In this document: piece by piece, positions 28,514 through 37,932 of the stretch | How positions within the stretch are numbered: position 1 is the stretch's first letter | How the letters are laid out: each line of letters opens with the position of its first letter | Origin: a virus | DNA: 40,359 bases | Direction: 5' to 3' (one strand) | Virus record (IMG/VR): IMGVR_UViG_3300036851_000374 | Coordinates: 1-40,359 of that record | Program-made: the position numbers and the translations under genes | The notes under the pieces: generated by a model | Database searches by the model: none | The model's input: only the letters and a program-made list of their open reading frames with translations | What the model was told of the DNA's origin: nothing

Positions 28514-29530
28514 CTATTTGGTTTCGGTTAATTCGGCGCGGCGGGATTTGTACCGCTCTCTCGCCTGCTTGCGCTCTTCCTCTTTGTCAATCGCATCAAT
28601 GAGCGTGCCATCGGCATCCAGAACATCGATATCCGTCGTCTTGTCGAAGCGGTCAAGCAGCCAAGCGAGCAGGACTTTCGGCGCTTCGTTTTTCTTCGTT
28701 ATATCCGGATCTGGAGTGCTATCCTTCGCCTTGCGCAAGCGTTGCTTGACGGCTTCGGTTTGCGTCGCAGGCTGCTCTGCCGAGCCCTTCGGCGGAAACG
28801 CCTGTTCGACTGTGGTTTCGCCTTCCCTGATCGCGGTCAAGAGCCCGCGCAAAGTGACTAGATGCTCCAGCGTGATGTCCTCGCGCCCAGTCACATTCAG
28901 CGTTTCAAAAATTCGTTCTTCAGAGACGCCAAAACCTTGGAATGCCTTCATTGCATCGGCGCGGCGGTTCTCGAGCGTTTTGAAATCGCCCATCACGGTT
29001 TTGCGCGCCGCGGCGTAGACATCGCTCCAGAATGCCTTGGGAATACCTTTCATGATCGCGTTACGAAGTGCGATCGAGCATGCTGCATTGGCGGTGACAC
29101 CGATCATGTCGGCCTTGTAGCGCCGCCCATGCTTGTCAGTGATTCGGCGCTTGACTTCGTAGCCAATTTTGACGTTCCTTTGCATGTCCCAAAAAATGCC
29201 CTGCGCAGTGACGAATTGCTCGCCTTCGTCGACGGTGCGCGCAGCGGCGTAGCAATTTCCCCAAGCCGACGCCAGCACTTCAGCGAGTCTTGCGCTCGGG
29301 CCTTCGATGACCTTGCCGTCACGTGGCAGCGCGTAGAAGCATTCCTCGGCGATCGTTTCGTTGAGCGAGACCATCGCCAGCGCTTCGTCGCGGAATTGCT
29401 TGATGGACCGCGGATAGCGCTTGGCCGTAGTGACCTGCATATTGATCTCGCTCGCATTCAACTGCGCGAGCGTTGAGGCGTCCATTTCGACGACCGGAAG
29501 GTCGCGTTCAAATGTTTCGGGCTGATTCAT
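28514..29530 (-). CDS. Putative recombination protein (candidate single-strand annealing protein)
   Basis: A 338-residue protein directly behind the YqaJ-type nuclease, sharing an ATGA overlap with it. The central block (EGPSARLAEVLASAWGNCYA at 76-95, then AQGIFWDMQRNVKIGYEVKR and MIGVTANAACSIALRNAIMK) is strongly patterned and seems conserved in phages. It lacks motifs I can assign to RecT, Erf or Rad52 types. The C-terminal third is charged and probably flexible. Exonuclease/annealing pairs normally lie together, so a distant RecT-like or new annealing family is the best inference. Confidence 0.55.
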   Translation of the reverse strand: MNQPETFERDLPVVEMDASTLAQLNASEINMQVTTAKRYPRSIKQFRDEALAMVSLNETIAEECFYALPRDGKVIEGPSARLAEVLASAWGNCYAAARTVDEGEQFVTAQGIFWDMQRNVKIGYEVKRRITDKHGRRYKADMIGVTANAACSIALRNAIMKGIPKAFWSDVYAAARKTVMGDFKTLENRRADAMKAFQGFGVSEERIFETLNVTGREDITLEHLVTLRGLLTAIREGETTVEQAFPPKGSAEQPATQTEAVKQRLRKAKDSTPDPDITKKNEAPKVLLAWLLDRFDKTTDIDVLDADGTLIDAIDKEEERKQARERYKSRRAELTETK

Positions 29531-30408
29531 TCTTTTGGTCCTTTCAATAAAAATGTCCTCACTCCGGGCGAGGTTTTAATGAATTGATCGTAAATTTGCG
29601 GATGCGCTTCTCTGAACGCTAACTTATCAAAGCGATGACTCTCTCGGCATTGCTTCCAAGTCGCTAATGGTTTTCCTTGATAGACAAGCGTATCGGCTTC
29701 GCCCATAAAACGTTTGATGAAGAGCTCTAATTGTTTTTCTTCCATTTCGTGTGTTTTCATCTGGCCGCGTAGCAGTGCGAGATGCAGCGCAGTCATCGCG
29801 ATTTCATACGGTGCCTCGACTTCTATCGCCTTGGAGGTGCGATAACGTAATTGAACATCCTCGAGCGTCACTGGCTCCGGCGGTTCCTGGCGTTTAACGC
29901 GCCCCCAAAATTCGCGCTCGGCTTCGGTGATAAGCTCAATCAGTTCATCGTCGCGTTCTATCCGATAAAGTTTGAAATCGCGGCCGGCGATGAGCACCGG
30001 CACGTAAGCCAAGACAAACCCGGTCACTGCGAACTGATGCTGAATTTGGATGATGTATGGCTGCGGGATTTCGTCGGTATTTTCTTCGCCGAAATCGTGC
30101 GCGGTCGCGCTTGTTTTTGCTTCGACAAGCGCATCACGGGAAATGCCGTCAATCGTTGCCCAGCGCCAGGGGTTTGCCGGATCAATAATCTTCGCCCCGC
30201 GGCGGGTCACTGGCATTCCGGTTTGCTTGGTGAATGCATCTAGCGTCACTGACTCAAGCGCTTTGCCGATTTCCATGGCAAGCGTGGTCGGCTGCTGCGG
30301 CAACTGGCCGAGTTTTTCAAGAAATAACGTTAGAGGTGTTTTCCAAGGCGAAATACCGAGCGCTGCCGGCGCGTCGGATGCCCCCAGTCCCTCTCGACGG
30401 TCAGTCAT
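29527..30408 (-). CDS. YqaJ-like recombination exonuclease
   Basis: A 293-residue PD-(D/E)XK nuclease of the YqaJ/lambda-exonuclease type. The N-terminal GLGASDAPAALGISPWKTPL (7-26) is the family hallmark. Active-site residues Asp87 (TIDG), Glu96 and Lys98 (VEAKT) follow the D-x8-E-x-K spacing. It would resect double-strand ends 5' to 3' and feed the annealing protein. ATGA overlaps join it to both neighbours. The C-terminal helices (about 185-293) are family extension. Confidence 0.82.
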   Translation of the reverse strand: MTDRREGLGASDAPAALGISPWKTPLTLFLEKLGQLPQQPTTLAMEIGKALESVTLDAFTKQTGMPVTRRGAKIIDPANPWRWATIDGISRDALVEAKTSATAHDFGEENTDEIPQPYIIQIQHQFAVTGFVLAYVPVLIAGRDFKLYRIERDDELIELITEAEREFWGRVKRQEPPEPVTLEDVQLRYRTSKAIEVEAPYEIAMTALHLALLRGQMKTHEMEEKQLELFIKRFMGEADTLVYQGKPLATWKQCRESHRFDKLAFREAHPQIYDQFIKTSPGVRTFLLKGPKE

Positions 30409-31298
30409 GAATCAGCCTTCGCGAAAGACGGTTCTGGCGCGACATCAATCCTTTGGTTTGCAAGCCATGAATGGTCGCGCCATACCCGCCACAAATCGCG
30501 CAGCAATCGCTTTTCCATATAGCGCTGGCTGCGCAGATGCGCTTTCTTTTTTGGCCCATCCGCGAGCCGTTCATCTTCAATCAAGCGACGCTGCTTATAG
30601 ACTTCGTAATACGCACCGCGCTGCCGCATCAATGAAGTCCCCACGACAAACATGATCGCGCGGCGCCGCGGATTGAAGCCCATCTTGATCGCTTTATTCG
30701 CTTCAAGGCATCGGCGCTGACGTTCGCCATCAACGAGCCCGAGACCCATTCGCTTCCAGAGTTTCGCGACGCTCGCATAGCCGGATAAATCGCCGGTCTC
30801 GCCGATGATTTGTCCGAAGGTGCAAGCGGAAAGACCTTTCACAGTTTCGACCCAAGCATAAGCGGGCAATTGTTTCGCTTCGCGTTCGAGATCATGTTCG
30901 GCCATCTCGCGATGAGCGGAAATGCGCGCATGCGCATCCAACAATGGCAGCAGATATTTGTAAGCGCGCTCTACCTCCGGCTCGATACTGATCGCAATGA
31001 TTGCCGCCGCTTGGGATAGAGATTTATTTTTGAGCTTCTTTGCGGGAGGCTTACGATAAAGGGCCGCGAGTGATTGAACCTTTTTATAGAGCGCTCGACC
31101 GTTCTCTTTGTCGCCGTCACAGAAGCGCCGACAAATTGCCATCATTTGATTTTGCAGACGCAGTTCTGCGTTCTGAAAATCAAAACGCATGCGGTGATAT
31201 TCGCGGATGGTAGCGATACGGTCGGGCGCTACAGTCTCACCATGGGTAGCAGAGATGCCTAGGTCGCGCCCTTCCGTTTTGCTCGGTTCAAAGTTCAT
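30405..31298 (-). CDS. Transposase_20-domain protein (IS110-type C-terminal domain)
   Basis: A 297-residue protein. Residues about 152-240 (VKGLSACTFGQIIGETGDLS, then AKLWKRMGLG, ERQRR and PRRRAIMFVVGTSLM) follow the C-terminal domain of IS110-family recombinases. The preceding coiled-coil-like region (40-150) is also comparable. The N-terminal RuvC-like DEDD nuclease domain of IS110 enzymes is absent. It is coupled to the YqaJ nuclease by ATGA and lies just downstream of the hairpin array. It could be a domesticated DNA-junction-binding protein or part of an RNA-guided activity; neither is shown. Confidence 0.65.
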   Translation of the reverse strand: MNFEPSKTEGRDLGISATHGETVAPDRIATIREYHRMRFDFQNAELRLQNQMMAICRRFCDGDKENGRALYKKVQSLAALYRKPPAKKLKNKSLSQAAAIIAISIEPEVERAYKYLLPLLDAHARISAHREMAEHDLEREAKQLPAYAWVETVKGLSACTFGQIIGETGDLSGYASVAKLWKRMGLGLVDGERQRRCLEANKAIKMGFNPRRRAIMFVVGTSLMRQRGAYYEVYKQRRLIEDERLADGPKKKAHLRSQRYMEKRLLRDLWRVWRDHSWLANQRIDVAPEPSFAKADS

Positions 31299-31322
31299 TC
31301 ATACCTCATGATGAAAACGGTC

Positions 31323-31777
31323 GGATGCGACACAAGCAACGTGGATAGCACCGGTTTTGTGGTCGCACCCTTCCGAATAAATGCTCATGCGCGCAGATCG
31401 AACCTGGATAACACTCCTCGTTAATGGCACGCACGAGCAAAAAGGAAGTGAATACGCGGCAGCATTTGGGTGCTGGGTTGCAAGATTCACCGTGGCCGCC
31501 GCGCACCATTTGTTTGGGATAGCTCGTGCGGAGCACAGGAGGCTTGGATTCAACATTAGGTTGTTGGCGCGCACGAGCCGGTGAAAAGTTGCCTGCGATG
31601 GCAGGCGGCGGTAGGTTGACACTCGAACTTTGGCCATCGCGGGCGTGAAAAGGGCTCGTGTTGTGCGCAATCATGGCTTGGTAAAGAAACGTCCTTTCTG
31701 GCGCATACACGAGCGAAAAGGATGGTGCGCAGAAAGTCATACTCTGGGTAACATTCGTTGTAGGTTCTGCACACCAT
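31323..31777 (-). ncRNA. Array of seven tandem structured RNA hairpins
   Basis: Reading the minus strand, seven stem-loops follow one another about every 70 bases: 31777-31722 (13 bp), 31714-31654 (8+5 bp), 31640-31595 (8 bp), 31578-31522 (9 bp), 31504-31454 (10 bp), 31438-31383 (12 bp), 31370-31323 (13 bp, one bulge). Stems differ in sequence but keep pairing. Loops of about 20-40 bases share a motif near GTTAYCCAG, usually after a small inner hairpin. All six wobbles are G-U on this strand and would be A-C mismatches on the other. No convincing gene covers the 479-base gap. Confidence 0.75.
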
Positions 31778-32353
31778 TTATAAAATCGCCAGTTCGGCAA
31801 TCTGCTGTTCACTCAATTGATCCCTCACAGGATGATTTCCTTTGAGATGCTTTCGTACTCGATCAATGAATTCGGCGCGTATTTGGTTGCTCTGTGCCAT
31901 TTTTTGATAGAAGGCAAATGCGTCGTCGAGATCCTTTTTATGCGCATCGCCTAATTTGATTTGGCTATCCGGCAACGGGAAGTCATACCAGCGATTGTGC
32001 GCGATGTAGAGCAATCCAGCCTTTGATGGTGGGCCATCTGTCTTCCCTCGATTACTGGCCGCTAAAACGATGCTGCTACGCGTTTCGTGCGCAGCCATGC
32101 GCACAAGATATCTAGCGGCAATTGGGACTAATTCCCAAATGAGCGCTTGAGGTGGAATAGTTATGCAGCAATGTCTGATATCGTCGTGAACCCACTGCAT
32201 GAGCAAGGCGACGGATTTATCCCAATCGCCATCGCATTGCGCGACGGCGCGCTTGGCCATTGCCATGGGCGATTCCGTTTCTGTTTCTATTGCTTCATTA
32301 ACAATCTCACCCGCCAACGCCAAATCATCGATTCGTTCGTTTGCTGTTTTCAT
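31778..32353 (-). CDS. Hypothetical early protein, 191 residues
   Basis: MKTANERIDDLALAGEIVNE opens a largely helical protein with ESPMAMAKRAVAQCDGDWDK and WVHDDIRHCC motifs and a C-terminal AFAFYQKMAQSNQIRAEFID segment. It is the last gene before the RNA array: its TAA (31778-31780) directly abuts the first hairpin. I recall similar phage proteins of unknown role. A functional link to the array is possible only from position. Confidence 0.6.
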   Translation of the reverse strand: MKTANERIDDLALAGEIVNEAIETETESPMAMAKRAVAQCDGDWDKSVALLMQWVHDDIRHCCITIPPQALIWELVPIAARYLVRMAAHETRSSIVLAASNRGKTDGPPSKAGLLYIAHNRWYDFPLPDSQIKLGDAHKKDLDDAFAFYQKMAQSNQIRAEFIDRVRKHLKGNHPVRDQLSEQQIAELAIL

Positions 32354-37856: not shown

Positions 37857-37932
37857 AGCGGGGTGGCGCAGTGGTCAGCGCGCACGGCTCATAACCGTGA
37901 GGTCGCAAGTTCAAATCTTGCCCCCGCAACCA
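37857..37932 (+). tRNA. tRNA-Met (CAU) with initiator-like acceptor
   Basis: A complete 76-base tRNA with encoded CCA (37930-37932). Arms: acceptor 37857-37863 / 37922-37928; D-stem GCGC/GCGC; anticodon arm CACGG-CTCATAA-CCGTG; T-arm GCAAG-TTCAAAT-CTTGC. Pair 1-72 is A-A, unpaired as in initiator tRNAs (C-A in E. coli), and the 3' end CCCCGCAACCA equals that of E. coli tRNA-fMet. Of the three initiator G-C pairs in the anticodon stem, two (30-40 and 31-39) are present; the third is C29-G41. An initiator-like phage tRNA is therefore likely. Confidence 0.9.

Follow-up and report, generated by a model that had tools for sequence, protein, structure and literature searches.

The TIGR-Tas family was first described in 2025 by Faure et al. 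(PMC12045711), whose main text presents arrays in which box C (CCA) and box D (UG) accompany two spacers of ~9 nt, each pairing with a different strand of the DNA, as well as stem-loop TasA arrays, in which the two spacers measure 8 to 12 nt and palindromic stems replace the edge repeats. That text leaves open the targets, the role of the nuclease-free TasA, and the way in which arrays gain guides. These questions can be approached through about 50 homologous, non-redundant loci, for some of which the alphaproteobacterial host has been sequenced. The window analyzed here, positions 1 to 40,359 of IMG/VR record IMGVR_UViG_3300036851_000374, is a 40-kb linear virus contig, and we conclude with high confidence that this phage carries a TIGR-TasA system of the stem-loop type, with a split guide RNA array.

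Like the TIGR-TasA of a Peromyscus gut contig (PMC12045711), the locus combines a solo Nop-domain protein with hairpins that each hold two short spacers framed by box C/D, palindromic stems of variable sequence, and linkers between units. Judged by its sequence, the window appears to be a member of this known type, matching it feature by feature. It departs from the Peromyscus system, as the main text of PMC12045711 presents it, in that two units sit within coding sequence, that of tasA, the array is preceded by a conserved but unrelated partner gene, and most units have spacers of exactly 9 nt. With TIGR-TasR and TasH (PDB 9mty and 21kl), the window TasA shares the Nop fold (Z of 16 to 18) and the box C/D dual-spacer logic, but it has no RuvC or HNH domain and no 36-nt dual repeats, and stems take the place of the short edge repeats. 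IS110/IS621 bridge-RNA recombinases have a related RNA-binding domain (Z of about 14) and RNA helices that frame split guides; unlike them, the window has no DEDD domain, no transposon, and arrays of many guides rather than a single two-loop bridge RNA. The archaeal and eukaryotic box C/D snoRNP (Nop5) shares the domain superfamily (Z of about 8 to 9) and the box C/D architecture, whereas the window TasA lacks the fibrillarin-recruiting domain and its targets are presumed to be DNA, not RNA. The guide RNA of TnpB and IscB, the omega RNA, overlaps the coding sequence of its effector, with one guide at one gene end. A guide overlaps the effector gene here as well, but whole arrays lie at the start of the ORF or run through it.

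Organization of the tas locus

In order of transcription, the minus strand carries a 191-aa ORF (32353-31778), a stretch of 479 nt (31299-31777) that begins directly after the stop codon of that ORF, a 297-aa ORF (31298-30405), an exonuclease gene, and a 338-aa ORF. The features of the locus, all on the minus strand, are as follows.

31778-32353, minus strand: conserved partner gene, 191 aa, recognized by its linkage to tas loci; stop codon directly adjoins unit H1
31722-31777, minus strand: tigRNA unit H1, spacers TACAACGAA / GAGTATGAC; divergent boxes ACC/TT, assigned by hand, the least certain of the units; stem MFE -19.5, z of -4.5
31654-31714, minus strand: tigRNA unit H2, spacers GAAAGGACG / AGCCATGAT; parsed by hand, loop without TG start
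31591-31644, minus strand: tigRNA unit H3, spacers AAGTTCGAG / ACCGCCGCC; strict template match
31522-31579, minus strand: tigRNA unit H4, spacers ACAACCTAA / AGCCTCCTG; parsed by hand
31455-31507, minus strand: tigRNA unit H5, spacers CGGTGAATC / GCACCCAAA; template match with a spacer A of 10 nt
31382-31439, minus strand: tigRNA unit H6, spacers TTAACGAGG / GGTTCGATC; template match, spacer A 11 nt in the scan and 9 nt in the hand parse
31323-31370, minus strand: tigRNA unit H7, spacers CAAAACCGG / CGTTGCTTG; strict template match
30405-31298, minus strand: tasA, a solo Nop-domain Tas protein of 297 aa without nuclease domain, identified by profile, AF2 model, and fold
31224-31271, minus strand: tigRNA unit H8 in tasA codons 10 to 25, spacers AGGCATCTC / TGGTGAGAC; strict template match, weak fold (z of -1.0)
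30429-30488, minus strand: tigRNA unit H9 in tasA codons 271 to 290, spacers TTCATGGCT / AAGGATTGA; strict template match, fold z of -4.1
29527-30408, minus strand: YqaJ/RecE-like exonuclease, outside the system; start overlaps the tasA stop by 4 nt

The window thus holds nine units, H1 to H7 on the 5' side of tasA and H8 and H9 within its ORF, built on the plan 5' arm, CCA, 9 nt, TG..CCA (9 to 11 nt), 9 nt, TG, 3' arm, with two 9-nt spacers per unit, each between a box C and a box D. The upstream units are 48 to 61 nt long and spaced 7 to 15 nt apart, H7 ending 24 nt before the tasA start codon. Hairpin units make up 81% of the stretch from 31299 to 31777, which has an MFE of -171.9 kcal/mol versus -141.0 +/- 6.9 in shuffles (z = -4.5). 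A strict unit template applied to both strands of the 40 kb gave 6 matches, all on the minus strand at the tas locus, compared with 0 to 2 in shuffled copies; H9, with a 14-bp arm, had the top score in the 40 kb, and H1, H2, H4, H5, and H6 deviate slightly from the template in box, loop, or spacer length. The stem-loop array that a preliminary description had noticed before the ORF is therefore real and comprises seven units, but the two inside the ORF (31224-31271 and 30429-30488) had been overlooked. Neither CRISPR-like near-identical direct repeats, beyond two-copy matches at chance level, nor a 36-nt period of alternating edge and loop repeats was found in the window. The phage also has a tRNA-Met (CAT) gene at 37857-37932 on the plus strand, the sole match in an Rfam scan.

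A nuclease-free Tas protein

The 297-aa protein is a nuclease-free TasA whose nearest relatives by sequence profile and fold are TIGR-TasR and TasH, with IS110 second. Against PDB sequences, a profile built from 40 homologues matched TasR (9mty) at 1.2e-31 and TasH (21kl) at 1.7e-13. An AF2 model of the protein (pLDDT 87, pTM 0.82) returned 9mty first in Foldseek (E of 4e-6), and its structural Z was 17.6 for TasR (189 residues), 16.6 for TasH, 14.3 for ISCro4, 14.0 for IS621, and about 8 to 9 for Nop5. A coiled coil and an RNA-binding domain are its only content; the lack of a nuclease domain, including the N-terminal DEDD RuvC-like domain, had been read correctly at the outset and agrees with both Pfam and the AF2 model. 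The Transposase_20 domain assigned to the protein at that stage survives in part: the Pfam match is sub-threshold (E = 0.12, 13.2 bits with a cut-off of 21.3), but the RNA-binding (Nop) portion is borne out by profile and fold.

The tree places 18 IS110 proteins in one group (100/99) and three Tas proteins with dual-repeat arrays in a group of their own (100/98), while 42 stem-loop-type proteins, the window protein among them, lie across a 90/91 branch from both. A search of plasmids found no tas homologue.

Guide units across the family

To place the window in its family, strict units were counted within -2.2 to +1.5 kb of tas at 49 non-redundant loci drawn from viral and genome collections. 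These loci hold 195 strict units, versus 0.67 in dinucleotide shuffles; as further controls, the opposite strand yielded 4 and the far flanks 3. Twelve phage records that are complete or nearly so show the units concentrated at tas, with a few at other positions. The early suggestions that hairpins and protein belong together, and that a single RNA-binding protein related to IS110 is served by many small RNAs, were right. The check proposed alongside them, whether homologues always have similar hairpins, gave strict units family-wide but not at every locus: eleven loci without a dual-repeat array have zero strict units, and three (L006, L066, and L071) carry 36-nt dual-repeat TIGR-type arrays instead of stem-loops. 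Among the eleven, two are truncated by their contigs and L035 has units under a clade-adapted template; in the remainder the box sequences may differ, or the array may have been lost. In the marine clade, the first base of box C covaries with the second base of box D, with nothing imposed on either, and the two form Watson-Crick pairs in 39 of 47 cases at the edge and 42 of 47 in the loop, most others being T.G.

One of the dual-repeat arrays, at L006:5489-5810 in Microcystis phage Mvi-JY20, has the 36-nt form ATGCGAGCC-N9-ACGAAACCC-N9 and lies downstream of a tas homologue annotated "hypothetical protein."

Guide units in coding sequence

Guide units in coding sequence, absent from the main text of PMC12045711, are found both in the window and beyond it. 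The tasA ATG at 31298 has an AGG-type ribosome site before it, and no other start occurs in frame until codon 37, within the first conserved helix, which argues that H8 truly lies in the gene. Both H8 and H9 fall largely in low-confidence tails of the AF2 model, H8 in the N-terminal one. Strict units also occur within tas at L013, L022, L047, L052, L054, and L070, and in several rhizobial phages they straddle the stop codon region.

In 13 of 33 loci, reading in the tas frame meets no stop between partner and tas, versus 0.96 expected from shuffles; the two alternative frames of this DNA, which cover the biases of hairpin-rich sequence that the shuffle leaves unmodelled, are open in 2 and 1 loci. 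All 13 open loci have an in-frame start codon within about 13 nt of the partner stop, and 9 of the open regions hold 3 to 7 strict units (L012, L020, L022, L024, L054, L055, L060, L063, and L001). The simplest reading of this openness is that the array would be translated as an N-terminal extension of TasA in such loci. With three stops in the tas frame of its own partner-to-tas region, the window falls outside this class.

A conserved partner gene

The 191-aa gene that precedes the array (31778-32353) is the conserved neighbor of tas, and it is absent from the main text of PMC12045711. A homologue, always on the tas strand, is present at 38 of the 49 non-redundant tas loci (36 upstream, 2 downstream), in a family gathered iteratively from a small set (E < 1e-4) whose edge is soft. 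Mutual identity within the family is about 20%; according to the main text of their report, Faure et al. grouped neighbor genes at 50% identity (PMC12045711) and for that reason would probably not have seen it. When IMG/VR was searched in reverse, starting from the partner, 7 of 7 loci had an adjacent tas (3 of the contigs were already known and 4 were new), and across 397 Hyphomicrobiales genomes the sole strong partner match lay at a tas locus, with one weak match (3.6e-4) elsewhere. The partner was not detected in the clade around L003, L048, L052, L059, and L076, the last analyzed over 3.8 kb only. It has no family match in Pfam, PHROG, or NCBIfam, and a fold search gave only weak, common helical matches. 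Any activity added to that of TasA would be sought first in this protein, and its linkage makes it testable as a co-factor or maturation factor.

At L003:4169-5029, where no partner was detected, the array lies inside the ORF directly upstream of tas, and the section of that ORF before the array resembles the partner N terminus by eye.

Spacer turnover in a fixed scaffold

In related phages both spacers turn over while stems and loops persist, a pattern absent from the main text of PMC12045711. In twelve orthologous unit pairs from related rhizobial phages, most of them from the two phage pairs L011/L061 and L065/L070, the two spacers are 31% and 23% identical (about 27%), which is the level of chance, compared with 80% for the loops and 70 to 79% for arms plus flanks in the same pairs. 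The stems change with compensation, as from TTGCCTGCTG..CGGCGGGCAA to TTGCCTGCCG..CGGCAGGCAA. Across 200 spacer pairs, no single spacer recurs. Modular exchange is seen in the marine group, where intact units turn up again at positions that vary from phage to phage. Diversification of the DGR type was rejected, as 15 phage records lack a reverse transcriptase.

Target searches

The published 8-nt 3' overhang gave us the target order, spacer A followed by the reverse complement of B; we also ran the opposite order, which gave nothing notable in the self-target search. When 118 spacer pairs from 15 phages were compared with their own records, no target had 0 or 1 mismatch and 2 had two mismatches, versus 2.8 for shuffled pairs. 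Between phages there was 1 one-mismatch match, where 2.3 were expected. The comparison of guide sequences with host genomes that the preliminary description had recommended did not bear fruit: over the phage, its 14 relatives, and parts of two host genomes, Shinella and Rhizobium, there was no excess of targets over shuffled spacer pairs. No target was found in 400 kb of the Shinella host. In 397 kb of the Rhizobium host there was one 1-mismatch match, a weak lead for which about 0.01 was expected for that search alone. This match, at L191:5303-5322 (G003:C4:165303-165322), is between a prophage guide unit (L010:4537) and the chromosome of its own host, and in our reading of the ORF the matched gene looks like a FliI-like flagellar ATPase.

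Exact targets of four spacer pairs in IMG/VR numbered 0, 1, 2, and 9. The nine belong to the H9 target and lie in start-codon contexts of mostly unrelated genes, a number close to the AAGGA-N8-ATGAA background if the collection is assumed to be some 45 Gb.

Proposed mechanism and alternative readings

By analogy with published TasA and TasR work, from which we infer RNA maturation, the TasA dimer, DNA guiding by pairing of the spacers with two strands, and DNA bending, all nine hairpin guide units would sit on one minus-strand transcript that spans the partner gene and tasA, and cuts in the linkers would presumably release each unit as one stem-loop tigRNA. A TasA homodimer would then grip two box C/D pairs, one at the stem base and one in the loop, and present the two 9-nt spacers. 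If TasA behaves as TasR does, spacers A and B would each pair with a different strand across some 18 to 20 bp of DNA, and the target would need no adjacent motif. Because TasA has no nuclease, the outcome at the target would probably be a programmable block or a DNA bend, with the upstream partner protein possibly acting as a co-factor. TasA is unable to cut, and in our searches it spares the genome that encodes it; its likeliest role is therefore to block competing elements or host genes. Units inside the tasA message also mean that cutting them out would cut the message itself, and we hypothesize that tigRNA maturation exerts negative feedback in this way.

The same locus had been read as a domesticated IS110 remnant that lost its DEDD domain, kept bridge-RNA-like hairpins, and relies on the adjacent YqaJ nuclease for cleavage. 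IS110 is indeed the second-best fold (Z of 14), 15 of 40 family members match Transposase_20 weakly, and the YqaJ gene overlaps the tasA stop. Yet TasR and TasH are closer by both profile and fold, the protein groups with Tas and apart from the 18 IS110 proteins, and the loops, rather than being of the bridge-RNA type, carry split 9-nt spacers in box C/D frames as arrayed dual-spacer hairpins. Nor does the nuclease behave as a partner, as no YqaJ gene lies near tas in 14 other records, the only one of these to have such a gene carrying it about 114 kb away. We consider an IS110 origin of this kind very improbable. Slightly less credible still are ordinary regulatory structures of a phage operon, such as terminators, attenuators, or protein-binding repeats, which the intergenic site and strong stems would suit. 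The stems have no poly-T after them, the fixed 9+9-nt spacers come with box C/D, and units occur almost only at tas; moreover, orthologous units have random spacers but preserved stems and loops, the opposite of what a regulatory loop would show.

A TIGR-TasA whose main role is regulation at the start of genes, with a ribosome-binding site plus ATG as its target, is a variant that we think improbable, if less so than either of these. Three of the nine window guides (H2, H8, and H9) specify a Shine-Dalgarno plus ATG layout, as do 7 of 200 targets family-wide, versus 3.1 +/- 1.5 for shuffled spacer pairs. This pattern was noticed post hoc, however; outside the window it amounts to 4 of 191, with no excess, and the exact IMG/VR matches of H9 are at background.

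Beyond the assignment to TIGR-TasA, we give a wider proposal slightly less than an even chance: a dedicated partner, the array, and TasA would form a three-part module in which the array is dual-coding in many phages, either read in frame as the TasA N terminus or lodged in the ends of its gene, maturation consumes the message of the effector, and guides diversify by two-spacer replacement within a fixed hairpin scaffold, an unrecognized form of adaptation without a nearby reverse transcriptase or Cas1. Replacement of spacers would be expected to leave just such phage pairs, alike in scaffold and different in spacers, and the presence of guide arrays in coding sequence predicts self-limiting expression.

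At a finer scale, the arrays of L040 and of L034/L043 hold the spacer pairs aggatctga/atgcgcgat and aggatcaaa/atgcgctac, which are identical except for the final bases of each spacer and are perhaps variants of one guide.
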